DNA of 16,673 bases from Candidatus Eiseniibacteriota bacterium (GTDB lineage: Bacteria; JAFGKV01), in assembly GCA_025453925.1 (NCBI GenBank), contig JALOPK010000032.1, forward strand, positions 1 to 16,673, in the 5' to 3' direction. Numbering within the stretch: position 1 is the stretch's first letter; each line of letters starts with the position of its first letter. The notes under the pieces are model-generated. The model did no database searches and was not told where the DNA came from. It saw only the letters and a list, made by a program, of their open reading frames with translations. Made by a program: the position numbers and the translations under genes. Below, one piece after another: positions 2,353 to 16,673 of this stretch.

Positions 2353-2357
2353 ATGTG

Positions 2358-3461
2358 ATGCCTGAGATCAAGAGGACACAGCTTGCCGCCGAACATGAAC
2401 GGCTTGGCGGCAAGATGGTGGAGTTCGGGGGCTGGTGGATGCCGGTCCGCTTTGCCGGAATCGTGAACGAGCACCTGGCGGTGAGATCGAGCGCAGGGCT
2501 CTTCGACGTGTCGCACATGGGTGAAATCCTGGTCACCGGCCCCGATGCCCTGCGGTTCACCAACAAGCTCGTGACCAATAATGTCGAACGGCTGGAGCCG
2601 GATCAGGCGCAGTACACCTGCATGTGCTACCCGACCGGCGGCATCGTGGATGACCTCCTCGTGTATCGCCTCGAGGACGGATACCTCCTGGTCGTGAACG
2701 CGGCCAACATCGAGAAAGATCATGCCTGGATCCTGAAGAACGCTGAAGGCGACATCCAGATTCGCAACGAAAGCGCCGACTACATCCAGGTGGCGCTGCA
2801 GGGGCCGAGAGCCGCGGAGATCCTGGCGCCGCTTACGGATGCGCGCCTCGAAACCATCGGATTTTACCACTACGCACTGGGCACGGTGGTTGGGATGCCC
2901 GCCATTGTCTCCCGCACGGGCTACACCGGTGAGGACGGATTCGAGATCTACATGAAGGGCGGCGAATCTGAGGCCTCGAAGCTGTGGCGCGCCATCATGG
3001 AGCGCGGGGCGGCGTTCGGCCTTGTCCCCGTTGGCCTTGGTGCACGCGATACGTTGCGTCTCGAAATGGGGTACATGCTCTACGGGAACGACATCACGCA
3101 AGACACCACACCTCTGGAAGCGGGACTGGGGTGGGTTACCAAGCTGAAGAAAGGGCCATTCATCGGCCGTGACGTCCTGCTGGAGCAGAAGGAACGAGGG
3201 CTGCAACGGAGCCTGATCGCCTTTGCCGTGGAGGGCCGCAGCTCACCGCGTCACGGCTACCCGCTGCTCTTCAATGGAGTGCCGCGAGGAGAAGTCACCT
3301 CAGGAGGGTTCTCCCCGTCGCTGGAGCGCGGCATCGGCATGGGGTATCTCTCCGCCGAGGCGCAGGCAGTCGAGGGTCAGCTCGCGGTCGACGTGCGAGG
3401 AAAACCGATTTCTGCTTCGAGGGTCTCATTGCCCTTCTACAAGCAGGGATCTCATCTGTAG
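2358..3461 (+). CDS. gcvT: Aminomethyltransferase, glycine cleavage T-protein
   Basis: GcvT takes the aminomethyl group from the lipoyl arm of GcvH and passes the one-carbon unit to tetrahydrofolate, giving methylene-THF and ammonia. The 367-residue length is normal for the family. Recognisable segments are GLFDVSHMGE (48-56), the GGIVDDLLVY stretch with the conserved Asp pair at 98-99 near the folate site, NAANIEKDH (114-122) and RTGYTGEDGFE (186-196). The start is the ATG at 2358, placed by GGAGG at 2348-2352. It is the first gene of the glycine cleavage operon, with gcvH 41 bases downstream. Low similarity to YgfZ-type paralogues can be set aside because the neighbours are all glycine cleavage genes. 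Confidence 0.96.
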   Translation: MPEIKRTQLAAEHERLGGKMVEFGGWWMPVRFAGIVNEHLAVRSSAGLFDVSHMGEILVTGPDALRFTNKLVTNNVERLEPDQAQYTCMCYPTGGIVDDLLVYRLEDGYLLVVNAANIEKDHAWILKNAEGDIQIRNESADYIQVALQGPRAAEILAPLTDARLETIGFYHYALGTVVGMPAIVSRTGYTGEDGFEIYMKGGESEASKLWRAIMERGAAFGLVPVGLGARDTLRLEMGYMLYGNDITQDTTPLEAGLGWVTKLKKGPFIGRDVLLEQKERGLQRSLIAFAVEGRSSPRHGYPLLFNGVPRGEVTSGGFSPSLERGIGMGYLSAEAQAVEGQLAVDVRGKPISASRVSLPFYKQGSHL

Positions 3462-3471
3462 GACTGTGTCG

Positions 3472-3489
3472 GTACCGTCAGTACCATCA
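3472..3489 (+). repeat. Imperfect tandem 9-base repeat between gcvT and gcvH
   Basis: GTACCGTCA is followed directly by GTACCATCA, one base different. It fills part of the 41-base gcvT-gcvH gap just before the gcvH ribosome binding site. It may be chance. Confidence 0.3.
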
Positions 3490-3495
3490 AGGAGG
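3489..3495 (+). promoter_or_regulatory. Strong ribosome binding site of gcvH
   Basis: AAGGAGG, a full match to the anti-Shine-Dalgarno, ends 7 bases before the gcvH ATG at 3503. It fits the high H-protein level usually needed relative to the other subunits. Confidence 0.75.
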
Positions 3496-3502
3496 AAGCG
3501 TC

Positions 3503-3889
3503 ATGGACGAAGCAATCCGCTGCACCAGTGAGCACGAATGGGTCCGCGCGGAGGAGGGGCTCGCGGTGGTGGGGCTCACCGATTATGCGCAGAGTGAACT
3601 CGGGGACATCGTGTATGTCGAGTTGCCGGAAGTCGGCGCGCGGTTCGAGAAGGGCGAGGTGTTCGGGACCATCGAGTCGGTGAAATCCGTGAGTGACATC
3701 TACTCACCGGTCTCAGGGGAGGTGAAGGCGGTCAATACCGAATTGGAGCCCCATCCCGAATTCGTCAATCAGGACTGCTACCATCAGGGCTGGATCGTCA
3801 AGCTTGAGATGTCCGACCCGTCCGAACTCGACGACCTCATGACCGATGCCGAATACGAGGAGTTCATCTCTGGAGGCGCCGAGGAGTGA
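3503..3889 (+). CDS. gcvH: Glycine cleavage H-protein (lipoyl carrier)
   Basis: GcvH is the small lipoylated shuttle of the glycine cleavage system, carrying the methylamine intermediate from the P-protein to the T-protein and then the dihydrolipoyl group to the L-protein. The 128-residue product has the expected fold signature: the SEHEW start (9-13), VGLTDYAQSELGDIVYVELP (23-42), and the lipoyl hairpin ESVKSVSDIYSP with the acceptor Lys61. The C-terminal DLMTDAEYEEFI is typical. A near-perfect ribosome binding site precedes the ATG. The stop codon overlaps the GTG of gcvPA. The lipM gene further down the operon probably encodes the enzyme that octanoylates Lys61. Confidence 0.98.
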   Translation: MDEAIRCTSEHEWVRAEEGLAVVGLTDYAQSELGDIVYVELPEVGARFEKGEVFGTIESVKSVSDIYSPVSGEVKAVNTELEPHPEFVNQDCYHQGWIVKLEMSDPSELDDLMTDAEYEEFISGGAEE

Positions 3890-5217
3890 GCAGGCTGCCG
3901 CTCACCGCACACGACAGGGAGGTGATGCTGTCCCGGATCGGCGCGGGCAACTTCGAGGAACTGCTGCGTCCGATCCCCACCGATATCCGGCTGTCGCGGG
4001 CGCTCGATCTGCCGCCTCCTCTGGCTGAGGCGGCGCTGGTCGCCCACGTGAGCGCGCTGGCGGGCGCCAACACACCCGTGCTCAGCTTCGTGGGGGCCGG
4101 TTCATACCAGCACTTTCGGCCCGCGGTGGTGGACTACCTCTGTGGGCGGCCCGAATTCAGAACAGCCTACACCCCCTATCAACCGGAAGTCAGCCAGGGC
4201 ACGCTTCAGACCATCTATGAGTTCCAGACTGCGATCGTCGAACTCACGGGCATGGATGTGGCCAACGCGTCCATGTACGAGGGGGGCAGCGCGGCCGCCG
4301 AAGCAGTGTTCATGGCGGTCGCGGCAACCGGCCGGCCTTGCATTCTGGTAAGCGACGGCGTGCATCCTCTGGTGCGACGCGTGGTGGAAACATATGCCCA
4401 CCCCAACGGAATCGCGGTCAGGCGCGTGCCGCTTCTCGGCGGCACCACATCGATGGCAGCGCTCCGTGAGGTCGTTTCCGATGCCGCGGGGCTCATCTAC
4501 CAGCAGCCGAACTTCTTCGGCTGCATCGAAGACCAGCCCGGGCTCATCGAGGCGTCCCACGGGGCGGGCGGGCTGGCCATCGCCAGCGTAGACCCGCTCT
4601 CGCTGGCCATTCTCGAGAGTCCCGGAGCCCTGGGGGCGGACATCGCCGCCGGTGAAGGGCAGGCCCTGGCCGCTCCGATGTCGTTCGGAGGCCCGGGCGT
4701 CGGCTTTCTGGCCTGCAAGCAGAGCCTGATCCGGCGCCTGCCGGGCCGACTTGTCGGCGCCACCGCGGATTCCCAGGGAAGGCCGGGCTTCGTGCTGACG
4801 CTCCAGGCCCGTGAGCAACACATTCGACGGCAGAAGGCTACCAGCAACATCTGCACCAACCAGGCGCTGGTTGCTCTGGCCTTTCTCGTCACGGTCTCCG
4901 CCCTCGGCCCCCGCGGGCTCGAGGACATGGCAACCCAAGCCGTGGAGAAAGCTCACTATCTGCAGCGAAACCTCGAGGCGAGAGGGCTTCCGTCCGCCTT
5001 TGACTCGCCGTTTCTGTGGGAGTTCACCGTGCGCACCAAAGGGCCGGCCTCGGCCTATGTCGATGCGCTGCTCCCGCGGGGCATCATGCCGGGTCTCGAT
5101 CTCGGCACCATCGATCCGCCGATGACCGATGGACTCCTGGTGTATGTGTCGGAGCTCCGCACGCGCCAGGAACTGGATCAAGCGGCCGCGCTCATGGAGG
5201 AGGTGCGCCATGGCTGA
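3886..5217 (+). CDS. gcvPA: Glycine dehydrogenase (decarboxylating) subunit 1
   Basis: GcvPA is the N-terminal-half subunit of the split P-protein, which decarboxylates glycine with pyridoxal phosphate and moves the aminomethyl group to lipoyl-GcvH. At 443 residues it matches the usual length of about 440-450. Characteristic stretches are SFVGAGSYQHFRPAVVDYL (67-85), RTAYTPYQPEVSQGTLQ (92-108) and NASMYEGGSAAAEA (127-140). Like its family it lacks the PLP lysine, which lies in subunit 2. The start is the GTG at 3886, overlapping the gcvH stop as GTGA, with GGAGG at 3872-3876. The 3' end overlaps gcvPB by 8 bases, which suits the 1:1 synthesis of the two subunits. Confidence 0.96.
   Translation: MSRLPLTAHDREVMLSRIGAGNFEELLRPIPTDIRLSRALDLPPPLAEAALVAHVSALAGANTPVLSFVGAGSYQHFRPAVVDYLCGRPEFRTAYTPYQPEVSQGTLQTIYEFQTAIVELTGMDVANASMYEGGSAAAEAVFMAVAATGRPCILVSDGVHPLVRRVVETYAHPNGIAVRRVPLLGGTTSMAALREVVSDAAGLIYQQPNFFGCIEDQPGLIEASHGAGGLAIASVDPLSLAILESPGALGADIAAGEGQALAAPMSFGGPGVGFLACKQSLIRRLPGRLVGATADSQGRPGFVLTLQAREQHIRRQKATSNICTNQALVALAFLVTVSALGPRGLEDMATQAVEKAHYLQRNLEARGLPSAFDSPFLWEFTVRTKGPASAYVDALLPRGIMPGLDLGTIDPPMTDGLLVYVSELRTRQELDQAAALMEEVRHG
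5196..5203 (+). promoter_or_regulatory. Ribosome binding site fixing the gcvPB start
   Basis: GGAGGAGG inside the 3' end of gcvPA ends 6 bases before the ATG at 5210. The frame is also open upstream from an ATG at 5129, but the conserved protein starts at MAERIIYELG, so 5210 is used. Confidence 0.7.
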
Positions 5218-6667
5218 GCGGATCATCTATGAGCTTGGCTCGAAGGGCCGGAGGGCCGTGGATCTCCCGGAACTGGACGTTCCCGGAGGCAATCTCGATG
5301 CCATTCTGCCGGCGGGCGCGCGCCGCAGGACCGTGCCAATGCTGCCGGAGGTGGACGAACTGGAGCTGATCCGCCACTTCGTGCGGCTCTCCGCGCTCAA
5401 CCACCATGTGGAGAAAGGGTTCTACCCGCTGGGCTCCTGCACGATGAAGGCAAATCCGCCGGTGAATGAAGTCCTCGCATCCCTGCCGGGCTTCACCGGA
5501 GCCCATCCCCTGTGGCCGGCCAGGCTGATCCAGGGGTCATTGCGCCTCATGGCGGAGCTGGAGTGTATGCTCGCGGAGATCTGCGGCCTCCACGCCGTAA
5601 CGCTCCAGCCTGCGGCCGGAGCCCACGGTGAGCTTACCGGGCTCATGGTCGTTCGGGCATATCACGAGAACCGCGGGAACCCGCGGAAACGGGTGATAAT
5701 CCCCGACTCCGCGCACGGCACCAACCCTGCCAGCGCCTCGCTGGTGGGCTACGAGACCGTGGAGATCAAGTCGGATCCGGACGGGCTGGTGGATCTGGCC
5801 GCGCTGGAGAGAGTGCTCGATGAGGACACGGCGGTGTTCATGCTCACCAACCCGAACACCCTTGGGTTGTTCGAGCGGCGCATCTGCCAGATTCAGAAGA
5901 TGGTCCACGCCAAGGGCGCGCTGCTCTACATGGACGGCGCGAACATGAACGCCCTACTGGGCATTGTCCGTCCAGGGGATACCGGTTTCGACCTTGTCCA
6001 TCTGAACTTGCACAAGACGTTCTCGACCCCCCATGGCGGAGGAGGTCCCGGCTCCGGGCCGCTGGTGGTCTCGAAGCGACTGGAACCGTTCCTCCCCGTG
6101 CCCAGGATCGCGTGCCGGCAGGACGGGACCTACGAATGGGACTGGGACCGGCCGCAGTCCATCGGCAAGGTAATGACATGGTGGGGGAACTTCGCGGTTC
6201 TGGTGCGCGCGTACGCCTACATTCGGGCCCTTGGCGGCGCGGGACTCGCCGAAGTGAGCGAGGGCGCCATACTGAACGCAAACTACCTGTTGGCGTTGGT
6301 GGGCGACCGGTTCGACCTGCCGTACTCCGGGCCCTGCATGCACGAATTCGTGCTGAGCGGCGACCGGCAGAAGAAGCGAGGGATTCGCACGCTGGACATG
6401 GCGAAACGGCTGCTGGACAAGGGAGTGCACGCCCCCACGGTGTACTTCCCCATTATCGTCTCGGAAGGGATGATGATCGAACCCACGGAAACCGAGTCCC
6501 GAGAGAGCGTCGAAAGCTTCGCCCGGGCATTGCTGGAGGTGGCGGACGAGGTGGAGCACGACCCCGACTTGGTCCATGGGGCTCCTTACACGACTCCCGT
6601 GAGCCGCCTGGACGAGACCCGGGCCGCGCGCCAACCGGACTTGGCCTACAAGCGCCGGGGTGCATGA
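5210..6667 (+). CDS. gcvPB: Glycine dehydrogenase (decarboxylating) subunit 2
   Basis: GcvPB is the PLP-binding C-terminal-half subunit of the split P-protein and pairs with GcvPA. The 485-residue product matches the family length. Key elements are YPLGSCTMKANP, close to the canonical glycine-site motif; the substrate loop DSAHGTNPASA; the MDGANMNA stretch; and NLHKTFSTPHGGGGPGSGP, in which Lys269 is the expected PLP Schiff-base lysine. The ATG at 5210 overlaps the gcvPA stop by 8 bases. The stop overlaps the lipM start as ATGA. The two-gene P-protein is common in Bacillota, Thermus, archaea and several uncultured lineages, whereas Proteobacteria such as E. coli have a single fused gcvP. Confidence 0.96.
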   Translation: MAERIIYELGSKGRRAVDLPELDVPGGNLDAILPAGARRRTVPMLPEVDELELIRHFVRLSALNHHVEKGFYPLGSCTMKANPPVNEVLASLPGFTGAHPLWPARLIQGSLRLMAELECMLAEICGLHAVTLQPAAGAHGELTGLMVVRAYHENRGNPRKRVIIPDSAHGTNPASASLVGYETVEIKSDPDGLVDLAALERVLDEDTAVFMLTNPNTLGLFERRICQIQKMVHAKGALLYMDGANMNALLGIVRPGDTGFDLVHLNLHKTFSTPHGGGGPGSGPLVVSKRLEPFLPVPRIACRQDGTYEWDWDRPQSIGKVMTWWGNFAVLVRAYAYIRALGGAGLAEVSEGAILNANYLLALVGDRFDLPYSGPCMHEFVLSGDRQKKRGIRTLDMAKRLLDKGVHAPTVYFPIIVSEGMMIEPTETESRESVESFARALLEVADEVEHDPDLVHGAPYTTPVSRLDETRAARQPDLAYKRRGA

Positions 6668-7509
6668 CCTTCGTGGGGGGAGAGGGTGCCCGGCACCAGA
6701 GTGGACGAGGGTGGCCGACAGACCAGAAGCGGCCCCCCTCTATTCTCCCTCAGGGCTGGCGTGTCATCCTCGATGGCGAGCGTCCGCCCGAGTTCAATAT
6801 GGCGCTGGACGAGGCGATCCTCGCCAGAGTCGTGGCCGCAGAGGCGCCTCCCACGCTCCGCTTCTATGGATGGGACCGGCCAGCGGTTTCACTGGGGTAC
6901 CACCAGGTGCCCGAGAAGGTGCTTGACCTCGAATTGGTGCGAAGCCATGGCATCGCCGTCGTGAGACGCCCCACGGGCGGGAGAGCGGTATTGCACGGTG
7001 ACGATCTCACGTACTCCGTGTCGCTTCCCGCCGCAACACCTTGGGCCACCAGCGTCACGGAGGCATATCGGGTCCTCAGCGAAGCGCTCCAGTGGGGCTT
7101 CCGGTGTGCCGGGTATGATGTGTCGCTGGCCCGCGGTCACACTGGGGAGCAGAGACCCGGGCCTCTGCCGTGCTTCGCGAGCACCGCGCGGTACGAATTG
7201 GTGTGGAACGGGAGGAAGCTGGTGGGAAGCGCCCAGCGCCGCCTCAGGGGAGGAGTGCTCCAGCAGGGCAGCATTCCGCTCAGGCGAGGACGAGTGAGCC
7301 CGGAGGATCTCCTTCCGGTCGGGCAGCCCGTCGGCGCCCGGGCCCGCTGGGCTACCGTCGAGGAGATCGCGGGTGGCCCCGTGAACGCGGACCGGCTTGC
7401 CCGCTCTCTGGCCGAGGGGTTCACCCAGCATCTCGGCGTGGGACTGTGCTTCGCCGCTCTGGATGCCTCTGATCTGGACGCGGCGCGTCTCATCGAGGCA
7501 GGTCAATGA
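6664..7509 (+). CDS. lipM: LipM-type octanoyltransferase (BPL/LplA/LipB fold)
   Basis: Enzymes of this type move octanoate from octanoyl-ACP to GcvH as the first step of lipoyl cofactor assembly; LipA then adds the sulfurs. The 281-residue protein has FNMALDEAIL (44-53), the RRPTGGRAVLH substrate loop (101-111), and the PCFASTARYEL segment with Cys170 where LipM carries its catalytic cysteine. This is followed by GRKLVGSAQRR with Lys185, the conserved lysine. A free-lipoate ligase (LplA) or an amidotransferase (LipL) are alternatives, but the CF...YEL...GSAQ block fits LipM best. The frame is open far upstream; the ATG at 6664 overlaps the gcvPB stop. The first 30 or so residues, rich in Gly, Arg and Pro, exceed what LipM normally has. 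The position directly after the gcv genes suggests it serves GcvH. Confidence 0.85.
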   Translation: MTFVGGEGARHQSGRGWPTDQKRPPSILPQGWRVILDGERPPEFNMALDEAILARVVAAEAPPTLRFYGWDRPAVSLGYHQVPEKVLDLELVRSHGIAVVRRPTGGRAVLHGDDLTYSVSLPAATPWATSVTEAYRVLSEALQWGFRCAGYDVSLARGHTGEQRPGPLPCFASTARYELVWNGRKLVGSAQRRLRGGVLQQGSIPLRRGRVSPEDLLPVGQPVGARARWATVEEIAGGPVNADRLARSLAEGFTQHLGVGLCFAALDASDLDAARLIEAGQ

Positions 7510-7883
7510 GCGATACGCAGCAGACGAAGGCCCAGGCTTCGCCCCTGCTCACCCGCCTCGCCAAGGAGATCGTCGACCGGAGCCTCACCGCTCCGGCGAT
7601 TATGTTCCTGGAGTCAACCAAGCCCTTGAGTTTCCTGGGCAGTCAGATTATGGTATTCTTCTCACCGTTCGTGAAGGCGTTCTGGGATGGTGCAAGCTAT
7701 GACCAGCTTTCCGCCCTCCTGGAAGACCGGGAGAATATCGAGCTGCTGCTCGGGGAGATCGAGCGCCTCGAAGCAGAGCGCGCGACGGCTCGCAAGGAGG
7801 AGAAGGCACGGCGCAAAGCCGAGAAAGCCCTCATGAAGGCTCAGAAGAAGGAGAGACGGTTATGGCCGAAGAAACGCAACTGA
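7506..7883 (+). CDS. Conserved-looking small protein of unknown function
   Basis: I do not recognise a family for this 125-residue protein. The N-terminal part (about 1-28) is polar. A moderately hydrophobic segment follows, APAIMFLESTKPLSFLGSQ (29-47) running into IMVFFSPFVKAFW, which looks like a membrane-associated or amphipathic hairpin rather than a clean transmembrane helix. From about residue 70 the chain becomes a charged coiled-coil-like helix (EIERLEAE...), ending in a Lys/Arg-rich tail. The start ATG overlaps the lipM stop as ATGA, and its 3' end overlaps the MutL-like gene by 22 bases. Tight coupling on both sides indicates a real gene made with its neighbours. A role as an adaptor for the downstream ATPase is only a guess. 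Confidence 0.8.
   Translation: MSDTQQTKAQASPLLTRLAKEIVDRSLTAPAIMFLESTKPLSFLGSQIMVFFSPFVKAFWDGASYDQLSALLEDRENIELLLGEIERLEAERATARKEEKARRKAEKALMKAQKKERRLWPKKRN
7848..7853 (+). promoter_or_regulatory. Ribosome binding site of the MutL-like gene
   Basis: AAGGAG inside the end of the preceding gene lies 8 bases before the ATG at 7862, supporting this start within the 22-base overlap. Confidence 0.6.
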
Positions 7884-9694
7884 ACCTTACTGAGCTCACG
7901 AGCATTCTCGCCACGGATTGTGGCAGCACGACGACCAAGGCGATCCTCATCGAGAGGGAGGCCGGCGAGTACCGCCTCAAGGTGCGCGGCGAGGCCCCCA
8001 CCACGGTGGAAAGGCCCGCCGAGGACGTGACCCGGGGGGTGCTCAATGCAGTCGGCGAAGTGGAGGAACTCACCAACCGATCCATCCTCGACGGAGAGGT
8101 TATCGTGAAGCCTTTCTCCAAGGACAAGGGCGTCGACATCTACATTTCCACGTCCAGCGCGGGTGGCGGACTGCAAATGATGGTGGCGGGAGTGGTCAAG
8201 AGCATGACGGGCGAGAGCGCCCAGCGAGCGGCGCTGGGTGCAGGCGCCATCGTGATGGATGTGCTGGCCTCCAATGACGGCCGGCTTCCTCATCAGCAGA
8301 TCGAACGAATCCGGAACCTCCGTCCGGACATGATTCTGCTCTCCGGCGGGATTGACGGAGGCACGACCACGCACGTGGCGGAGCTGGCCGAGATCATTTC
8401 CGCCGCAGACCCCAAGCCGCGGCTGGGGCACGGGTTCAAGCTGCCGGTGATCTATGCCGGGAACAAGAATGCCCGTGAGATCGTGCAGAACATCCTCGGA
8501 GACAAGGTCGACCTCTTCGTCGTCGACAATCTCCGTCCGGTGCTGGAACGCGAGAACCTTGGACCGGCGCGGGAGAAGATCCACGAGCTGTTCATGGAAC
8601 ACGTCATGCAGCAGGCGCCCGGGTATGCCAAACTCATGCAGTGGACGGATGTCCCTATCATGCCGACGCCCGGCGCGGTCGGCCTGATCATCCAGACCAT
8701 CGCTGCCCAGCATGGCATCGACGTGGTGGGAGTCGACATCGGCGGGGCCACGACCGACGTGTTCAGCGTGTTCTCGGGGACGTTTAACCGCACCGTGAGC
8801 GCCAACCTCGGCATGAGCTACTCGGTGTCCAATGTCCTCGCCGAGACCGGGCTGGACAATGTCATGCGATGGGTGCCGTTCGACATGGACGAGCTGGATC
8901 TCCGCAACCGCATTAAGAACAAGATGATCCGGCCCACCACGATACCGCAGCTCATGGAGGAGCTGATCGTGGAGCAGGCCATCTCCCGGGAGGCCCTCCG
9001 GCTCGCATTCGTCCAGCACAAATCGTTCGCCGTCGGCCTGAAGGGAATCCAGCAGGAGCGGACGATCTCCGACACCTTCGAGCAGAAGTCCACCGGCGAA
9101 ACGCTGGTCAACATGATGAGTCTGAAGCTGCTGGTGGGTTCGGGAGGCGTGCTCTCCCATGCCCCCCGCAGAAACCAGGCTGCCATGATGCTGATCGATT
9201 CATTCCTTCCCGAGGGATTCACCCACCTCGCCGTTGACTCGATCTTCATGATGCCGCAACTGGGCGTCCTCTCCACTGTCCATCCCGAAGCGGCGACCGA
9301 GGTATTCGAACGGGACTGCTTGATCCACCTGGGGACCTGCATCGCTCCGGTCGGCCCCGCGAGACCAGGCAAGCCTATCCTCGAACTGGATATCGAGCTG
9401 CCGCAGGGCACCGAGCACGTTGCCATGGAGTTCGGCCAGCTCCGGCTCCTGCCGCTGGGGGTCGGGGAGAAGGCCCGGGTGCGGGCACGGCCCGCCAAGG
9501 GACTGGATCTGGGCGGCGGCAAAGGCGCCGAGGTCAGCGAGGAGGTCGAGGGCGGCGTGGTGGGCATCATCATCGATACCCGCGGGAGGAATCCCTTCGT
9601 GCTGCCCGTCGATGCCAGGGAGCGTGTGCCGAAGCTCGTGGAATGGATCAAGGCCCTTGATGCCTACCCGGTTGAAGCCCTGTCCCACCGGTAG
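7862..9694 (+). CDS. MutL/GlmL-type ASKHA ATPase (glutamate mutase accessory family)
   Basis: The protein belongs to the MutL (GlmL) family, named after a clostridial gene next to glutamate mutase and thought to act as a reactivating ATPase for B12 enzymes; it is unrelated to mismatch-repair MutL. The actin/Hsp70 nucleotide site is visible: phosphate-1 TDCGSTTTKA (18-27), SGGIDGGTTTH (161-171) and phosphate-2 VDIGGATTDVF (about 291-301). At 610 residues it is longer than the roughly 460-residue clostridial GlmL; the extra length includes a C-terminal region of beta-rich character (from about 500) containing LDLGGGKGAEVSEEVEGG. No B12-binding mutase subunit is encoded nearby, so the partner is unknown. 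It lies between two proteins of unknown function in the glycine cleavage transcript. The family call is firm; the role is open. Confidence 0.85.
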   Translation: MAEETQLNLTELTSILATDCGSTTTKAILIEREAGEYRLKVRGEAPTTVERPAEDVTRGVLNAVGEVEELTNRSILDGEVIVKPFSKDKGVDIYISTSSAGGGLQMMVAGVVKSMTGESAQRAALGAGAIVMDVLASNDGRLPHQQIERIRNLRPDMILLSGGIDGGTTTHVAELAEIISAADPKPRLGHGFKLPVIYAGNKNAREIVQNILGDKVDLFVVDNLRPVLERENLGPAREKIHELFMEHVMQQAPGYAKLMQWTDVPIMPTPGAVGLIIQTIAAQHGIDVVGVDIGGATTDVFSVFSGTFNRTVSANLGMSYSVSNVLAETGLDNVMRWVPFDMDELDLRNRIKNKMIRPTTIPQLMEELIVEQAISREALRLAFVQHKSFAVGLKGIQQERTISDTFEQKSTGETLVNMMSLKLLVGSGGVLSHAPRRNQAAMMLIDSFLPEGFTHLAVDSIFMMPQLGVLSTVHPEAATEVFERDCLIHLGTCIAPVGPARPGKPILELDIELPQGTEHVAMEFGQLRLLPLGVGEKARVRARPAKGLDLGGGKGAEVSEEVEGGVVGIIIDTRGRNPFVLPVDARERVPKLVEWIKALDAYPVEALSHR

Positions 9695-9739
9695 CCGAGA
9701 GAACGACACATGAACCAGATCACTGGCGACCGCATCGAT

Positions 9740-9745
9740 AGGAGG
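9740..9745 (+). promoter_or_regulatory. Ribosome binding site deciding the barrel-KOW gene start
   Basis: AGGAGG ends 6 bases before the ATG at 9752. The longer in-frame ATG at 9710 has only a weak GAGAG upstream, so 9752 is preferred. Confidence 0.75.
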
Positions 9746-9751
9746 CAGGTC

Positions 9752-10876
9752 ATGGCTCACGCATACACACCAGGTTTGAGGGTGGCCGAGCTCACCGTCG
9801 TGCGCAAGGAGCGCCGGCTGCCGCTGCCCGGCGAAGTGCTGGTCAAACTGGGCGCCCACGTGAAGGCGGCACAGGTCGTCGCCCGCACCGAACTCCCGGG
9901 AAACGTGGAAAGCGTCAATGTCGCGAATCGGCTGGGCGTGCCCCCCGAGGACGTGCCCCAGTGCATGCTCAAGAAGGAGGGAGACTCCATCGAGAAGGGC
10001 GAGGTGATCGCCCAGAGCAAGAGCTTCTTCGGTCTCTTCAAGTCTTCCTGCCAGGCCACGGTCACCGGCACGGTGGAGACCGTGTCCTCCGTGACGGGCC
10101 AGGTCTTGCTTCGAGAGCCGCCGCTCCCCGTGGAAGTACGGGCGTACGTCGACGGCATAGTCGCCGATGTGCTTCCCGGGGAAGGAGTCGTGGTGGAGAC
10201 CCCGGCCACCTTCATTCAGGGCATCTTCGGCATCGGCGGAGAGATCCAGGGCCAATTGGTCATGGTCGTGGCAAGTGCCGATGAGATCCTGGACGCCGAC
10301 CGTCTCACCGAGGCGGTACGGGGCAAGGTAGCGGTGGGGGGATCCCTGGTGACCGCCGCGGCGATCCGCAAGGCCATCGCCGTCGGTGCGAAGGGAATTC
10401 TGGCGGGGGGGCTGCACGACAAAGACCTCCGGGAGTTCCTGGGCTATGATCTCGGCGTGGCCATCACCGGGAACGAGGACAAGGGCGTCACCCTTATCGT
10501 GACGGAAGGATTCGGCAAGATCCGGATGGCCGAAGCCACATTCAACCTGCTGAAGCGCTGCGAAGGCATGGAATGCTCGATGAACGGGGCCACACAGATT
10601 CGCGCCGGCGTCATCCGGCCGGAAGTGGTCATCCCCCGGCAGGACAAGCAACCCACCAACGAGGAGGCTGGGGAAGGCGCGGGCAACATGGTGGTCGGCA
10701 GCCAGGTCCGCGTCATCCGCGAGCCCTACTTCGGGCGCCTTGGCACGGTGAGCCTGCTCCCCTCCGAGCTGCAGCGCATCGAGAGCGAAACCATGGTGCG
10801 CGTACTCGAGGTGCGATTCGGCGACGGAACGCAGGCAATCATCCCACGCGCCAACGTCGAACTAATCGAGAAGTAG
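9752..10876 (+). CDS. Hybrid-barrel and KOW-like domain protein, unknown function
   Basis: The 374-residue protein has no named family that I recognise. Residues about 23-57 and 73-120 look like barrel-sandwich-hybrid repeats of the biotinyl/lipoyl/RnfC type: LPGEVLVKLGAHVKAAQVV, and KKEGDSIEKGEVIAQ followed by ATVTGTVETV. Neither hairpin shows a modifiable lysine at its tip. A Gly/Ala-rich alpha/beta segment (about 165-300) contains AVGAKGILAGGL and ITGNEDKGVTLIVTEGFG. From Gly316, VGSQVRVIREPYFGRLGTV matches the KOW motif of NusG and ribosomal proteins and runs on to the C-terminus. There is no signal peptide, so it is probably cytoplasmic. It follows the MutL-like gene by 57 bases. A scaffold or nucleic-acid-binding role is possible but unproven. 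Confidence 0.8.
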   Translation: MAHAYTPGLRVAELTVVRKERRLPLPGEVLVKLGAHVKAAQVVARTELPGNVESVNVANRLGVPPEDVPQCMLKKEGDSIEKGEVIAQSKSFFGLFKSSCQATVTGTVETVSSVTGQVLLREPPLPVEVRAYVDGIVADVLPGEGVVVETPATFIQGIFGIGGEIQGQLVMVVASADEILDADRLTEAVRGKVAVGGSLVTAAAIRKAIAVGAKGILAGGLHDKDLREFLGYDLGVAITGNEDKGVTLIVTEGFGKIRMAEATFNLLKRCEGMECSMNGATQIRAGVIRPEVVIPRQDKQPTNEEAGEGAGNMVVGSQVRVIREPYFGRLGTVSLLPSELQRIESETMVRVLEVRFGDGTQAIIPRANVELIEK

Positions 10877-10923
10877 GGGGATCGCCTAGGCATCGGGACA
10901 ACGACGCCGCCATAGGGTGGCCT

Positions 10924-10929
10924 GGAGGG
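10924..10929 (+). promoter_or_regulatory. Ribosome binding site deciding the histidine kinase start
   Basis: GGAGGG lies 5 bases before the GTG at 10935. An upstream in-frame GTG at 10917 has no such site, so the kinase is started at 10935. The 58-base gap after the barrel-KOW gene has no terminator that I can see. Confidence 0.65.
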
Positions 10930-10934
10930 ATGCG

Positions 10935-12170
10935 GTGAATCCGACGCTCGTCACCAGCGTTCTGGCCGGCTTCATGGTCGGCGTGGTCATTGCGCTGATC
11001 CTCGTGCGTCTCACTCCGCCGAGACGTTCCGGACTTGCCGCGCGCGCCAACGACGCCGCGGCCTGGGCAGGGGTACTCAGCCAGGCGCTACGGGAGCTCA
11101 AGACCCGCCAGGCCGTTGCCGATTCGCAGCGGGAGGACGCGGAGAGCCGTGCGGTCCAGGCGGAACTGCTGTACCGGGTGATCCTAGATTCGGTGCCTAA
11201 CGGTGTCGTGACCTTCGATGGAGCCGGTGCGCTGGTGACGGTCAATCCGGTCGCGCGAAGGCTGCTGGGAACGGGCGCGGCGGGGACGGACCTTCCCTTT
11301 CCACTCGCGACGCAGCTTCAGACGGCGCTCAGCGGGGGCACGCCCCCGTATCTTGAGACCGATCTGATGGTTGGCAGCGCGGCGATCCCGGTCGGAGTCC
11401 AGACCCGGCCTCTGGCCGTGGGCGGCAGTACCGCCGGCGCCGTCATGGTGCTCGTAGAACTCGCCGAGTTGCGACGGCTGCAGACCCGGGCCCGCCTCGT
11501 GGAGGAGCTGGCCGATCTGGGCCAGCTCACGGCGGGCATCGCCCACGAGTTCCGCAATGCCTCGGGAACCCTTCGCGCGGCTGCTCAGTTCCTGGCGGGG
11601 AAGGTGGAGGGGCCTGCCCGCGAGGCAGTCGACGACCTCCTTCAGGAAACCGACCGGCTCGCCAGGGTGACGACCGACCTGCTGGACTTCGCCAGACCCT
11701 GGGAGCGGGGTATCGAAAGCGTCGAACTGGACGCGGTGGTTCAGGAGGTTGCGCAGCACCTGCAGGCCGCGTTCCCGGCCTACCGGGCCGAACTCACACT
11801 CTCTTGCCCCGGGAGGACCGTTCTGGGAAAGGGCACGCTTCTGGCCCGCGTGGTCGACAATCTCGTGCGGAATGCCATCGAGGCCGGACCGCAGGGCGGC
11901 TCCGTGCTGCTGCGGACATCCGAGATCGCCGACGAAAGCGGCCGATGGCTGACCCTCCAGGTCATGGACCGCGGGGCGGGGCTGACCGTCCAAGACGAGG
12001 AAGAGGCGTTCTTCCCCTTTCGGAGCACAAAGGCGGGCGGCACGGGCATGGGGCTGACCCTGGCGCGGAAGATCGCCCGGCTGCACGGAGGCACGGTGAC
12101 TCTTGCGAACCGGGACGGCGGCGGTGCCGTCGCGACCCTGAAGCTCCCTCCGGGAGAGGCCGTCGCGTGA
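10935..12170 (+). CDS. Membrane-anchored PAS histidine kinase
   Basis: This 411-residue sensor kinase would autophosphorylate and pass phosphate to the response regulator encoded next. It has one N-terminal transmembrane helix (about 4-24, LVTSVLAGFMVGVVIALIL), a helical linker (about 45-80), a PAS-like domain (about 76-170, ILDSVPNGVVTFDG) and a HisKA dimerisation helix with the phospho-acceptor His204 in IAHEFRN. The ATPase domain follows, with the N box (Asn313 in LVRNAIEAG), the G1 box DRGAGL (345-350) and the G2 box GGTGMGL (368-374). With no sizeable extracytoplasmic loop, it likely senses a cytoplasmic or membrane signal through PAS. The architecture resembles NtrB-like partners of NtrC-type regulators. 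Its stop overlaps the regulator start as GTGA. Confidence 0.92.
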   Translation: MNPTLVTSVLAGFMVGVVIALILVRLTPPRRSGLAARANDAAAWAGVLSQALRELKTRQAVADSQREDAESRAVQAELLYRVILDSVPNGVVTFDGAGALVTVNPVARRLLGTGAAGTDLPFPLATQLQTALSGGTPPYLETDLMVGSAAIPVGVQTRPLAVGGSTAGAVMVLVELAELRRLQTRARLVEELADLGQLTAGIAHEFRNASGTLRAAAQFLAGKVEGPAREAVDDLLQETDRLARVTTDLLDFARPWERGIESVELDAVVQEVAQHLQAAFPAYRAELTLSCPGRTVLGKGTLLARVVDNLVRNAIEAGPQGGSVLLRTSEIADESGRWLTLQVMDRGAGLTVQDEEEAFFPFRSTKAGGTGMGLTLARKIARLHGGTVTLANRDGGGAVATLKLPPGEAVA

Positions 12171-13603
12171 GCAATGCCCCCGCTTTCAAGGCCGCCCGCC
12201 CTCACGACGTTCGGGCGTGCGTGCTGCTGCTCGAGGACCGCGAGACCCTGAGACGGTCGCTGGCGAGGTTGCTGTCGGAGCGGCAGTATGTCGTGCGGGA
12301 AGCGCCGAATCTGGCTCATGCCAGGGAGGAACTGGCGAACCATCCGCCCGACATCATCGTCGCAGATTTGAAACTCCCCGATGGCGAGGGTACGGAACTA
12401 CTCGTTCTCGCCCAGCAACTGCCCAAGCCTCCCCCCGTGGTGCTTCTGACGGCCTACGGTTCCGTGGAAACCGCTGTCTCGGCCATGAAGCAGGGCGCCT
12501 ACGACTTCCTTACCAAACCGGTGGACTCGGAGCACCTCATTCTTGTGCTGCAGCGGGCGCTGGAAGAGTCCCGGCGGCGGTGGCGGTTCGAAGCACTGTC
12601 GCAGTCACAGGGTGGGGAGCCCGATCTGGTCGGCTCCAATAGGGCGTTCCTTGAGGTAATCGCCCGGGGACGCGCCGTGGCCCCGACGGAGACCACCGTG
12701 CTCGTCCTTGGTGAGAGCGGCACGGGAAAGGAGTTGTTGGCACGACTCATTCACCGGCACAGCACGCGCCGCGACAGCGTCTTTGTCCCGGTCAACTGCG
12801 CCGCCATTTCCGCGTCCCTGGCGGAAAGCGCCCTGTTCGGACACGAGCGGGGGGCGTTCACGGGAGCGCGGGATCGCCACCGCGGGTGGTTCGAGCTCGC
12901 GCACGGGGGGACCCTCTTCCTGGACGAAGTGGGCGACCTCGATCCCTCGCTTCAGGGCAAGTTCCTCAGAATCCTCGAGGATGGCACCCTTCAGCGTGTC
13001 GGCGGCTCCCAGTGGGTGAAAGTTGATGTCCGGGTGATCGCGGCAAGCAACCGCGACCTCAGCGCCGACGTGGCGTCGGGCCGATTCCGGGGTGATCTCT
13101 ACTATCGTCTGGCGGTGTTCCCGCTTGCCCTCCCGCCATTGCGGGACCGGCTGGACGACATTCCGCCGCTGGCCAATCATCTCTTGAACCGACACGCGGC
13201 CATGCTGGGGCGGGGATCGCTCGCCCTGAGCGATGGCGCGCTGGACCTGCTGACACGGTATCACTGGCCCGGGAATGTGCGGGAGCTGGCTAACGTCCTG
13301 GAGCGAACCGCAATCCTCTCCCGTGGACCCGTGATCACGCCGGAGATGCTGCCTGCCCTCCAACCGCTGGTCGCCATGGCAGCCACCACCAGGCGGGACG
13401 AGGACCTCCCGTCGCAGGTCGCCGCGGTAGTGGAACGGGTCGAGCGGGAGGCCATCCTTCGCGCATTGGAGAGAACCTCGGGACGGCGGAACGAGGCCGC
13501 ACGGCTCCTGGGGATCACCTACCGGACTCTGCTCAACAAACTCAACGCATATGGCATGGACCCCCAGAAGGGTTCCCCAGGCTTTCGTGGAGGTGAATCA
13601 TGA
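12167..13603 (+). CDS. NtrC-family sigma-54-dependent response regulator
   Basis: The 478-residue protein is a transcription activator that remodels sigma-54 RNA polymerase. The receiver domain (about 17-130) has the acidic pair Glu23/Asp24, phospho-acceptor Asp67, Thr95 and Lys117. The AAA+ domain (about 150-385) carries Walker A GESGTGKE (182-189), the sigma-54-contacting GAFTGA loop (229-234), the Walker B region GGTLFLDEVGDL, and the arginine-rich segment ending in HWPGNVREL. A Fis-type helix-turn-helix (GRRNEAARLLGITYRTLLNKL) closes the protein. The frame is open far upstream, but the GTG at 12167, overlapping the kinase stop, gives the correct N-terminus. The downstream carbamoyltransferase ATG overlaps its stop. 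The targets are unknown; the adjacent genes are the obvious candidates. Confidence 0.95.
   Translation: MSNAPAFKAARPHDVRACVLLLEDRETLRRSLARLLSERQYVVREAPNLAHAREELANHPPDIIVADLKLPDGEGTELLVLAQQLPKPPPVVLLTAYGSVETAVSAMKQGAYDFLTKPVDSEHLILVLQRALEESRRRWRFEALSQSQGGEPDLVGSNRAFLEVIARGRAVAPTETTVLVLGESGTGKELLARLIHRHSTRRDSVFVPVNCAAISASLAESALFGHERGAFTGARDRHRGWFELAHGGTLFLDEVGDLDPSLQGKFLRILEDGTLQRVGGSQWVKVDVRVIAASNRDLSADVASGRFRGDLYYRLAVFPLALPPLRDRLDDIPPLANHLLNRHAAMLGRGSLALSDGALDLLTRYHWPGNVRELANVLERTAILSRGPVITPEMLPALQPLVAMAATTRRDEDLPSQVAAVVERVEREAILRALERTSGRRNEAARLLGITYRTLLNKLNAYGMDPQKGSPGFRGGES
13589..13593 (+). promoter_or_regulatory. Ribosome binding site of the carbamoyltransferase gene
   Basis: GGAGG within the end of the regulator gene lies 6 bases before the ATG at 13600, which overlaps the regulator stop as ATGA. 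Confidence 0.7.
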
Positions 13604-14589
13604 CCGTTGATCCCGCGACCCTCAAGGGCCGAGACTTCCTGCTGACCGCCGACTGGGCCCGGCCCGAACTGGAGGTCGCGCTGGACTGGTCCGCCCGGCT
13701 CAAGGAAACCCGCCGGCTGGGGATGCCCCACCGGATGTTGGAGTCGAAGACCGTGTTCCTGGTGTTCTTCGATAAGTCGACGCGAACCAGGAACTCCTTC
13801 GAGGCGGGGATCACGCAACTGGGAGGCCACGCCCACTTCATCGCCGCGGAGACCTCCCAGATCGCGCATGGCGAGAGCCCCAAGGACATGGGGATCATTC
13901 TGTCCACCTATGGTGAAGCCATCGCCATACGGCACGACCTCTTTCCCGGCGAAGGCCAGTCGTACATGCGCGAGGTCGCGCACCACGCATCCGTTCCAGT
14001 CCTGAACATGCAGTGCGACGTGGATCATCCCTTCCAGATGCTGGCCGACCTCATGACCATCCAGGAGCAGTTCGGGCGCGACGTCCGGGGATTGAAGGTT
14101 GCGGTGAGCTGGGCATACGCGCCATCCTACGCCAAACCCCTGAGCGTGCCGCAGGGTCTGCTCATGCTCCTGCCGCGCTTCGGCATCGATGTCGTTCTCG
14201 CCCACCCGCCCGAATACACGCTGCTGCCTGAGGCTTTGGAGCTGGCGCACAGGGGCGCCGCGGAAGGCGGAGGCCGCATCACCGTCGCCTCTTCGATGGA
14301 GGAGGCTGCGGAGGGTGCCCACGTCGTGTATGCCAAGAGCTGGGGCGTCGCGGACCTGATGAAGAAGCCCGAGGAGGCGCTGGCGCTGTCGAGGAAGTAT
14401 GCGCACTGGATCTGCGACGAGCGCATCATGCGCATCGCGGGCCCCGAGTCGAAGTACATGCACTGCCTGCCGGCGGACCGGGGCAACGAGGTCAGTGATG
14501 AGGTGCTCGACGGGCCGCGCTCGATCGTCTACCCGGAGGCCGAAAACCGCCTCCACACCTGTAAGGCCATCATGGCGCTGGTGATGTAG
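13600..14589 (+). CDS. YgeW/acetylornithine-type carbamoyltransferase, substrate unknown
   Basis: The 329-residue protein is an aspartate/ornithine carbamoyltransferase superfamily enzyme. Carbamoyl phosphate contacts are present: STRTR (60-64), HPFQ (143-146) and HCLP (288-291). The second-substrate side is not that of ordinary ornithine carbamoyltransferase: where ArgF has a D-W-SMG loop, this protein reads YAKSWG (244-249), as in N-acetylornithine carbamoyltransferase and YgeW. The SQIAHGES loop, the NMQCDVDHP segment and WAYAPSYAKPLSVPQG closely follow YgeW as I remember it, while the C-terminal EAENRLHTCKAIMA follows the acetylornithine enzymes. Such proteins have a knotted fold. The substrate cannot be read from the sequence, and automatic labels of argF would be misleading. 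It is translationally coupled to the sigma-54 regulator. Confidence 0.88.
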   Translation: MTVDPATLKGRDFLLTADWARPELEVALDWSARLKETRRLGMPHRMLESKTVFLVFFDKSTRTRNSFEAGITQLGGHAHFIAAETSQIAHGESPKDMGIILSTYGEAIAIRHDLFPGEGQSYMREVAHHASVPVLNMQCDVDHPFQMLADLMTIQEQFGRDVRGLKVAVSWAYAPSYAKPLSVPQGLLMLLPRFGIDVVLAHPPEYTLLPEALELAHRGAAEGGGRITVASSMEEAAEGAHVVYAKSWGVADLMKKPEEALALSRKYAHWICDERIMRIAGPESKYMHCLPADRGNEVSDEVLDGPRSIVYPEAENRLHTCKAIMALVM

Positions 14590-14659: not shown

Positions 14660-15997
14660 TCACTCTCCGATGCGAGGCGGAAGGTAGTCCGCGCAGGGAT
14701 CTACCGGCTCGGCGAACGGACTCTGCCAGCCCGTCTCGAAGTAGTTGCCCACCGTGGCAGGAAGGCGGCCTCCCGAGATGAACACGCTGAGGTTGCGCGA
14801 TCCGTGAAACCCCTCGCCGGTCCAGTTCGACGTGCCGATCCAGCAGAACTCGTCATCAGCCACCGCATACTTCGGATGCTCGACCCGCGCATACGGAATG
14901 AAGCCGCCCGACCACTCCGGAAGGTTGCTGAACCGCACCTCGATGCCGGGTGTGGCGGCCAGGCTCTTCACATAGGGCAGAGAGCCGGAACGCTTGTTCC
15001 AGTTCGACAGCATCAGGCGCACGCGGACGCCCCGGGCGGCCGCACGCTTCAGGGCGCCCTCCAGCGCTTCGTGATACTGCCTCCCGCTGACGGGGTCGAA
15101 CGTGAGGACCTGGGCGCAGAGGGTTTTCGATGCCGAGTCGATGAGCGCGACCAGCAGGGGCTCATCCCACGGGATGCCTGGCGGCAACGCCTGGGGCGGA
15201 CTGGCGGCAAGCCTCACGACGGCCGTGTCGCCCCGCGAAACCCCAATCCTGAACGGACCGGCTCCCAGAGGAGCTGTCGACGTGACCGAGGCATCGTCCC
15301 TCTGACTGCTGGGAGACTCGGCTGCCGTGGTATCCAGCGGACGCCCCAGGGACCAGTCCATCATCAGGATCGACCCGATGGCGGCGGTCATCCCGGGGTG
15401 TCGGATCCGGATACCCAGCTCCCTGACGTGCTCCAGGGACCGCCAGTCCCAGTTCTGGGATCCGACGAATAACTCATCCCGGTCGATGGCCATGCACTTG
15501 GCGTGGAGGACCCCTCCCCAGAGCCGCTTCACGTCCAGGAGCCGCACCTCTGCGTGCTTCAGCGAAGCAACATGCGCGAGCATCTCGGGGTAGGTTCTCG
15601 CGAACCCCGCATCCGCCAGCATGCGAATGGTCACGCCCCGCCGCGTTGCCGATTCCAGCTCCCCGATGACCCCGTCGAGCAGTTCTTCGGCGGTATCCGC
15701 GCTGACGTAGAATGTCTCGATCTCAATCAGGGAGTCCGCATGGGCGATCATCTCCCGCCATACCTCGGGGGTGTTCCGTATCAGGGGGTTGTCCAGGGGA
15801 GTCTCCACGGGAACACTCTCCACCAGCTCGATGGCGGCTCCGGCAAGGCCGGGCAGTTCAAGTGCCGAGAGGGGCTGGCCGGGAAGGGTGACGAGGAAGG
15901 ATAGAGCTCCCAGTGGCGCGGCTCCTTGAAGCCGCAGCAGCCTCGGGAGCACCCCGGGACGACCGCCCCACCATCGCGAGGCCTTCCCACGCGTCAC
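14660..15997 (-). CDS. PLD3/PLD4-like phospholipase D superfamily protein
   Basis: The 445-residue protein has two HKD catalytic motifs: LHAKCMAID with His165, Lys167 and Asp172, and EHPKYAVAD with His374, Lys376 and Asp381. The flanking sequences GSQNWDWRSLEHVRELG and YARVEHPKYAV...IGTSNWTGEGF closely resemble the animal PLD3/PLD4 and poxvirus group (GSANMDWRS, GTSNWSG), and the domain starts with a matching LVESVP. That group includes 5' exonucleases and lipid transphosphatidylases, so the substrate is open. A weakly hydrophobic stretch (about 28-47) after a basic N-terminus could be a signal or anchor. The start is a GTG overlapping the upstream gene's stop as GTGA, with AAGGAGG 6 bases before it. 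The two HKD motifs make the fold certain. Confidence 0.9.
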   Translation of the reverse strand: MTRGKASRWWGGRPGVLPRLLRLQGAAPLGALSFLVTLPGQPLSALELPGLAGAAIELVESVPVETPLDNPLIRNTPEVWREMIAHADSLIEIETFYVSADTAEELLDGVIGELESATRRGVTIRMLADAGFARTYPEMLAHVASLKHAEVRLLDVKRLWGGVLHAKCMAIDRDELFVGSQNWDWRSLEHVRELGIRIRHPGMTAAIGSILMMDWSLGRPLDTTAAESPSSQRDDASVTSTAPLGAGPFRIGVSRGDTAVVRLAASPPQALPPGIPWDEPLLVALIDSASKTLCAQVLTFDPVSGRQYHEALEGALKRAAARGVRVRLMLSNWNKRSGSLPYVKSLAATPGIEVRFSNLPEWSGGFIPYARVEHPKYAVADDEFCWIGTSNWTGEGFHGSRNLSVFISGGRLPATVGNYFETGWQSPFAEPVDPCADYLPPRIGE

Positions 15998-16673
15998 TGG
16001 GCACCTCCTTCAGGAAACATCACATCGAGAAGCCCCATGCGCCACAATCGCCTCATCAGCACGCGCGCCGATTCCACCAGGTGAGTTGCATCCGCCTGAA
16101 GTCCTGCCAGGCGGAGGCACTCCGCCACGCTGCGACGCCCATCCATGAATCTGAACAGGCTGGACTCCAGCGGGTTCAGTGTATCCAGGAACCGAAGCCC
16201 CCGGGAGCGGAGCCGCATCCGGTCGATGATGGGGACTGCCTGGCTGAAGTCGGCGGACTCGAAGTCGATGCCATACTGCCCCGGACTCCGGTCATCCCGG
16301 CACGCGACGACATAGTGCTGGGTAATGGCGTGGAAGAGCTCCATCGCGCCCCAGACGGCCGGTTCGGGCAGATGACTGATGGCGTCGAAAAGCGGGTTCG
16401 CCGGCGAGATGTGGCTATCAGGGTAGTACCACTCGTTGTTGGCCCACCGCTGGAAACGCAGGCCCGCCGACTCGATGAGCCTCAGCAGCCCGTCGACGGT
16501 GTAGTCGACATCGCGCCGGTTCAGGAAGGTATCGACGAATGCGGCGTCGTGGGTCAGCCCGTACGCCGAGAGAAACCGATGGGCCGGGTGGTGAGGGCCC
16601 AGCGCGGCAGTGGCGCCACGCACCGCGGCCAGCCCGTGATCATCCTGCTCGATGCCTAGCACCCGGAACAGGG
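15994..16673 (-). CDS. C-terminal part of a probable SAM-dependent methyltransferase, 5' end missing
   Basis: The minus-strand frame runs open to the window edge (LFRVLGIEQDDHG...), so the GTG at 16662 is not the real start. About 225 residues are visible and contain no SAM-binding motif. The pattern AVRGATAALGPHHP, then FLNRRDVDYTVDGLLRLIESAGLRFQRW, and later LRFLDTLNP and FRFMDGRRSVAECL resembles the C-terminal half of a group of class I methyltransferases whose Rossmann domain lies N-terminal, here outside the window. That assignment rests on remembered family patterns and is tentative. Its 3' end overlaps the PLD3/4-like gene as GTGA, so the two are translationally coupled and probably share a function. 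Confidence 0.6.
   Translation of the reverse strand, partial: LFRVLGIEQDDHGLAAVRGATAALGPHHPAHRFLSAYGLTHDAAFVDTFLNRRDVDYTVDGLLRLIESAGLRFQRWANNEWYYPDSHISPANPLFDAISHLPEPAVWGAMELFHAITQHYVVACRDDRSPGQYGIDFESADFSQAVPIIDRMRLRSRGLRFLDTLNPLESSLFRFMDGRRSVAECLRLAGLQADATHLVESARVLMRRLWRMGLLDVMFPEGGAQ
16004..16010 (-). promoter_or_regulatory. Ribosome binding site of the PLD-like gene
   Basis: On the minus strand AAGGAGG lies 6 bases before the GTG at 15997, within the 3' end of the upstream gene. It supports the chosen PLD-like start. Confidence 0.75.

Follow-up and report, generated by a model that had tools for sequence, protein, structure and literature searches.

Co-inheritance links a MutL-type ATPase module next to glycine cleavage genes with a DUF6754 membrane cassette

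Three adjoining genes of a Candidatus Eiseniibacteriota bacterium encode a small hydrophobic protein (u125), a MutL-type ASKHA ATPase (here the 'MutL610' subfamily) and a barrel–swivel–KOW protein. With a probability that we put at roughly 0.7, this trio serves as the ATPase module, on the cytoplasmic side, of an apparently undescribed system whose membrane part is the DUF6754 cassette. That the trio and the cassette make up one functional unit is very likely. More broadly, we lean towards a widespread and deeply conserved ATP-driven machine, carried by roughly one in four of 241 genomes, mostly from uncultured lineages, in which the MutL-type ATPase and its KOW partner power or assemble an FN3–DUF6754 complex. 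At least four unknown families are joined in one unit by a co-occurrence of 60/60, so that genes so far scattered as 'hypothetical' can be tested as one system.

The window, i.e. the whole stretch of 16,673 nucleotides that we analysed, belongs to a metagenome-assembled genome (82% complete, 502 contigs) with a close relative, L047, that was deposited as Candidatus Fermentibacteria. On its + strand the order is uvrA, gcvT, gcvH, gcvPA, gcvPB, lipM, u125, the MutL-type gene, the KOW protein gene, a histidine kinase, an NtrC-type regulator and a carbamoyltransferase. The gcvT to gcvPB genes (2355..6667) and lipM (6664..7509), coding for an LplA-type octanoyl/lipoyl transferase, are the context of u125 (125 aa, 7506..7883), MutL610 (610 aa, 7862..9694) and the KOW protein (374 aa, 9752..10876), all on the + strand. 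The original prediction had described a trio chained to lipM, and this is what the window contains: the end of lipM and the start of u125 share an ATGA, a 4-base overlap, the u125 and MutL610 genes overlap by exactly 22 bases, and the ATG of the KOW protein gene at 9752 is preceded by AGGAGG. The word 'fused' was a loose one, since the genes overlap but are separate. L027 and L028, the nearest relatives within the genus and the family, keep this gene order, including the downstream pair of histidine kinase and NtrC-type response regulator (10917..13603, + strand). Since the trio is retained in these relatives and each of its proteins is conserved in many phyla, its arrangement is not due to chance. 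A scan for promoters and terminators gave a signal no higher than in shuffled sequences. At the far end of the window, the carbamoyltransferase (13600-14589) has YgeW, ornithine and N-acetylornithine carbamoyltransferase as its best models, all below cut-off. On the - strand lie a tandem PLD-domain protein with a weak DrmC-like match (14660-15997) and a 222-aa protein without a Pfam match (15994-16662), whose genes overlap by 4 bases.

How consistently are these genes inherited together? Our sample consisted of 241 diverse genomes, mostly one or two per family, that were chosen irrespective of the genes in question. DUF6754 occurs in 63 of them. The KOW protein is found in 60/241, a count that leaves out a marginal match in G210 (E 1e-4), and DUF6754 is present in all 60. 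MutL610 was scored in 56/241, although some genomes scored as negative carry a divergent homologue (e.g. G032, G062); DUF6754 accompanies it in 55 of the 56, and likewise accompanies u125 in 56 of 57 genomes. The Fisher values, which ignore phylogeny, are p=1e-53 for the KOW protein, 2e-44 for MutL610 and 9e-46 for u125. As there are few genomes per family, the conclusion that these genes are co-inherited is unlikely to hinge on phylogeny. SolB, another member of the cassette, also occurs in 63 genomes, 61 of which are DUF6754 genomes. The exceptions are three DUF6754 genomes without the KOW protein and one genome (G089) with MutL and u125 and without DUF6754; incomplete assemblies may be the cause of both. 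The window's own genome holds the cassette, u125, MutL610 and the KOW protein together. The proposal that the trio is a co-occurring unit, and that no other part of the window is a better candidate for an undescribed system, is borne out, with the DUF6754 membrane cassette as the missing partner. In two related genomes we saw a SolB-like protein without the other proteins of the system (G095, contig C20, 39791-40537; G233, contig C25, 25321-26076), possibly an outgroup family.

DUF6754 is the most striking recurrent neighbour of MutL and KOW loci. It is encoded in a cassette of four genes, DUF6754-TMA-SolB-TMC, often repeated in tandem. TMA (about 210 aa) and TMC (about 215 aa) have multiple transmembrane (TM) helices, and SolB (about 280 aa) carries an anchoring TM helix at both ends. 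The DUF6754 gene product has an FN3-TM-DUF6754 architecture, with the FN3 domain found both by sequence and by model (Z of about 13 to titin and neogenin FN3 domains). The model has a mean pLDDT of 84.7 and a pTM of 0.63, and predicts an alpha/beta DUF6754 domain with a pLDDT mostly of 84-96. Fold searches with this model are dominated by FN3 and left the DUF6754 domain unmatched, which is not evidence of a new fold. Hydropathy gives a signal or TM segment, about 105 aa, a TM segment, about 200 aa and a further TM segment; read in this way, the FN3 domain is probably exported, with the DUF6754 domain of about 200 aa in the cytoplasm and a C-terminal TM helix. The window genome has DUF6754 on four contigs (C45, C195, C207 and C485), with full cassettes on C207 and C485, and there is none at the gcv–lipM site itself. 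Some variations on the cassette were seen. In a Planctomycetota genome an FHA domain is inserted in TMA (L097, 4594-5856), hinting at phosphothreonine-dependent control. A metallo-beta-lactamase-fold hydrolase follows cassettes of the window genome and its relatives (L161, L166, L168), and in L161 it is followed by a Ser/Thr kinase–FGE fusion.

The members of the system are also often neighbours in the genome. MutL and KOW genes lie within 3 kb of each other in 41 genomes, and most of the loci that we analysed have a KOW gene near MutL, usually with a u125-like gene just upstream. DUF6754 is at most 8 kb from MutL or KOW in 28 genomes. In about half of the genomes the cassette lies away from both genes; contig breaks account for some of these cases. 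In two loci, L169 and L179, u125, MutL and KOW run directly into one or more cassettes. Other contexts of MutL are gcv operons, rpsR-rplI-like clusters (named from sequence inspection) and Tol/ExbBD-type genes, among which the identity of ExbB and ExbD was confirmed. Two Bacillota loci (L089, L101) have two adjoining MutL610–KOW pairs each. Finally, MutL and KOW are joined in single-chain paralogues of about 950-1030 aa in three genomes (G000, G001, G002), with further probable fusions in G083 and G117. These natural fusions support a physical association between the two proteins. In four loci with such paralogues (L039, from contig C148 of G000, with the gene at 3597-6686 of the locus, and L040, L041 and L042) the match to the KOW protein ends before the C-terminal KOW domain. 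No DUF6754 cassette lies near these genes, whose neighbours include those for an asparaginase, a D-aminopeptidase, an M3 peptidase and a protein of the metallo-beta-lactamase fold.

MutL610 belongs to a known superfamily. It scores 427 bits against PF13941 (E 8e-128, cut-off 27) and carries the ATP-site motifs of the ASKHA fold: phosphate-1 (DCGSTTTK, residues 19-26, 7916..7939), phosphate-2 (VDIGGATTD, residues 291-299, 8732..8758) and adenosine (GSGGVLSH, residues 426-433, 9137..9160). In our alignment these motifs are near-invariant among MutL610 homologues, and two cysteines, C20 and C486, are conserved. We predict an ATP-binding enzyme, presumably with ATPase activity. The alignment also shows a C-terminal extension (residues ~486-610, 9317..9691, GGVVGIIIDTRGR) that is missing from the classical Or-4 and GlmL proteins compared. 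Judged by these sequence features, MutL610 is a distinct, new subfamily. A PDB sequence search found no match for it, and a weak match to the MutL C terminus in G050 led to no recognisable relative. In a quick tree the classical and fusion sequences sit on very long branches, so their placement was set aside. Outside the group to which the window belongs, the ATPase is about 67-74% identical in the 80 best loci, and homologues occur in Zixibacteria, Eisenbacteria, Cloacimonadota, Planctomycetota, Poribacteria, WOR-3, Marinimicrobia and Bacillota. Such strong conservation across phyla suggests an important role in the cell.

By the names of the NCBIfam models, GlmL serves B12 mutases. MutL610 is in the same Pfam superfamily; could it have the role ascribed to GlmL and reactivate or chaperone a B12-dependent mutase? 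We consider this very improbable. Against the curated models NF040745, NF040744 and TIGR01319 the protein falls below every cut-off (229.7 against 475 for GlmL, 216.8 against 600 for Or-4 and 178.7 against 204 for the GlmL family), whereas a classical copy (L044) passes the Or-4 model with 692. Counting matches over the cut-offs of PF06368 (glutamate mutase E) and PF09043 (aminomutase), we found the former in 1/56 and the latter in 3/56 MutL610 genomes; neither is present in G000-G002, nor in the window's own genome. B12-binding domains (PF02310) are present in 230/241 genomes, in keeping with a B12 role, but are too widespread to serve as a phyletic partner. One genome, G121, provides an internal control: of its two classical MutLs, one has glutamate mutase E as its neighbour (contig C25) and the other an aminomutase (contig C15), whereas its MutL610 (contig C19) adjoins KOW and DUF6754. 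Another, G153 (97% complete), has MutL, KOW, u125, SolB and DUF6754 with a single marginal B12-binding match (E 3e-4), and a scan of the fetched loci for B12 motifs gave only spurious-looking matches. The original prediction had stated that the window encodes no mutase or B12-binding protein, and none was found among the window proteins searched; its view that this is not a standard mutase accessory is supported, while its suggestion of an unlinked B12 enzyme as the target is disfavoured by the same counts. The labels 'MutL' and 'glutamate mutase L' are therefore probably wrong for this subfamily in many uncultured phyla, as it is not paired with B12 mutases.

The third protein had been described as a barrel–KOW protein, and a weak RnfC_N barrel-sandwich profile match at its N terminus agrees with an AF2 model (mean pLDDT 87.6) on this point. 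In the model the barrel-sandwich is followed by a swivelling alpha/beta domain, and a KOW/Tudor domain forms the C terminus. Residues 129-296 match RraA and phosphohistidine-type swivel domains among PDB folds (Z up to 9.4). Residues 310-374 (10679..10873) match NusG, Spt5 and ribosomal KOW/Tudor domains with a Z of about 8, which is near background, yet many of the KOW rows span the whole domain. A PDB sequence search found no match of note. An iron-sulfur role was rejected, as no cysteine is conserved.

The genomic position of the trio raises another explanation, in which it would use ATP to assist glycine cleavage or the transfer of lipoyl groups to GcvH. A gcvPB gene lies within 6 kb of MutL610 in 11/56 genomes from 8 families, much more often than expected by chance (roughly estimated at 6e-11). 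The genes of L169 run gcvT-gcvH-gcvPA-gcvPB-u125-MutL-KOW, two cassettes and LplA, and those of L177 are arranged similarly, though with a single cassette and a PH-like gene; in both, the module and cassettes are flanked by gcvPB and, at the far end, an LplA-family gene. Moreover, the N-terminal fold of the KOW protein is of the barrel-sandwich type, like lipoyl domains. However, its hairpin lacks an invariant lysine (K90 is found in 23/37 sequences and K97 is mostly K or R), hence it is no canonical lipoyl carrier, and a lipoyl or biotinyl carrier role was rejected. Furthermore, 45/56 MutL610 genomes have no gcvPB nearby, one genome (G010) has MutL, KOW and DUF6754 with no gcvPB match, and gcvPB-type sequences occur in 224/241 genomes, mostly without the trio, so that this profile is too widespread to discriminate as a phyletic partner. 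DUF6754 is a far tighter partner, and the glycine cleavage explanation is quite unlikely. Of the coupling to gcv and lipM that had been proposed, the linkage itself exceeds chance, but most homologues have no gcv neighbour. It is best explained as a site that some phyla have conserved, and not as a general partnership.

A soluble role could also be imagined, with MutL610 and the KOW protein forming a metabolic enzyme and the DUF6754 cassette acting as a substrate transporter or sensor, the ATPase not acting on the complex. This is unlikely, if a little less so than a role in glycine cleavage. PF13941 is distantly related to the hydantoinase/oxoprolinase ASKHA enzymes, to which MutL610 has a weak match, mobile catalytic or carrier domains are similar to the swivelling part of the KOW protein, and asparaginase and peptidase genes lie near the fusion paralogues. 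On the other hand, no metabolic gene recurs with the cassette among the neighbours examined, and in five genomes (G018, G107, G138, G139, G153) KOW stays near DUF6754 where MutL is elsewhere on the genome. The small protein u125 points the same way. Its hydrophobic segment, PAIMFLESTKPLSFLGSQIMVFFSPFV, is conserved and its C-terminal tail is charged; homologues range from Fermentibacteria to Cloacimonadota, Marinimicrobia and Firmicutes, and in several genomes u125 adjoins DUF6754. It is a candidate membrane adaptor.

We therefore prefer a cytoplasmic ATPase module that serves the DUF6754 membrane complex, and propose the following model. MutL610, as an ATP-binding ASKHA enzyme, would work with the KOW protein in the cytoplasm, and u125 would dock both on the membrane beside the predicted cytoplasmic domain of DUF6754, where contact between the parts may take place. 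By binding or turning over ATP, the module might then make the membrane complex assemble, disassemble or cycle between conformations. The ATPase probably does act on this complex; that it does so by assembly or conformational cycling in particular is a more tentative suggestion, at somewhat less than even odds.

The system as a whole appears to be new, a provisional judgement from literature coverage without most subscription journals, in which no paper mentioned DUF6754, PF13941 or PF20539. Its membrane partner has a Pfam family, DUF6754 (PF20539), a domain of unknown function; in that literature we found no account of the four-gene cassette or of a link between it and a MutL-type ATPase. The domain folds of the KOW protein are known from NusG and Spt5 (a barrel-sandwich insert plus KOW) and from the RraA and phosphohistidine swivel domains, but are combined differently here and have no transcription or RNA context. 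The barrel-sandwich of the RnfC N terminus and biotinyl/lipoyl domains give weak profile matches, below cut-off, and the KOW protein differs from these in lacking conserved cysteines and an invariant carrier lysine. A further comparison is with GlmL/MutL, the accessory of the B12-dependent methylaspartate (glutamate) mutase, and Or-4 of ornithine degradation, which have the same PF13941 core and the same three motifs as MutL610. MutL610 differs in a C terminus that is about 120 aa longer, in scores below every GlmL cut-off and in having no mutase nearby nor, usually, in the genome; its partners are instead the KOW protein, u125 and DUF6754.
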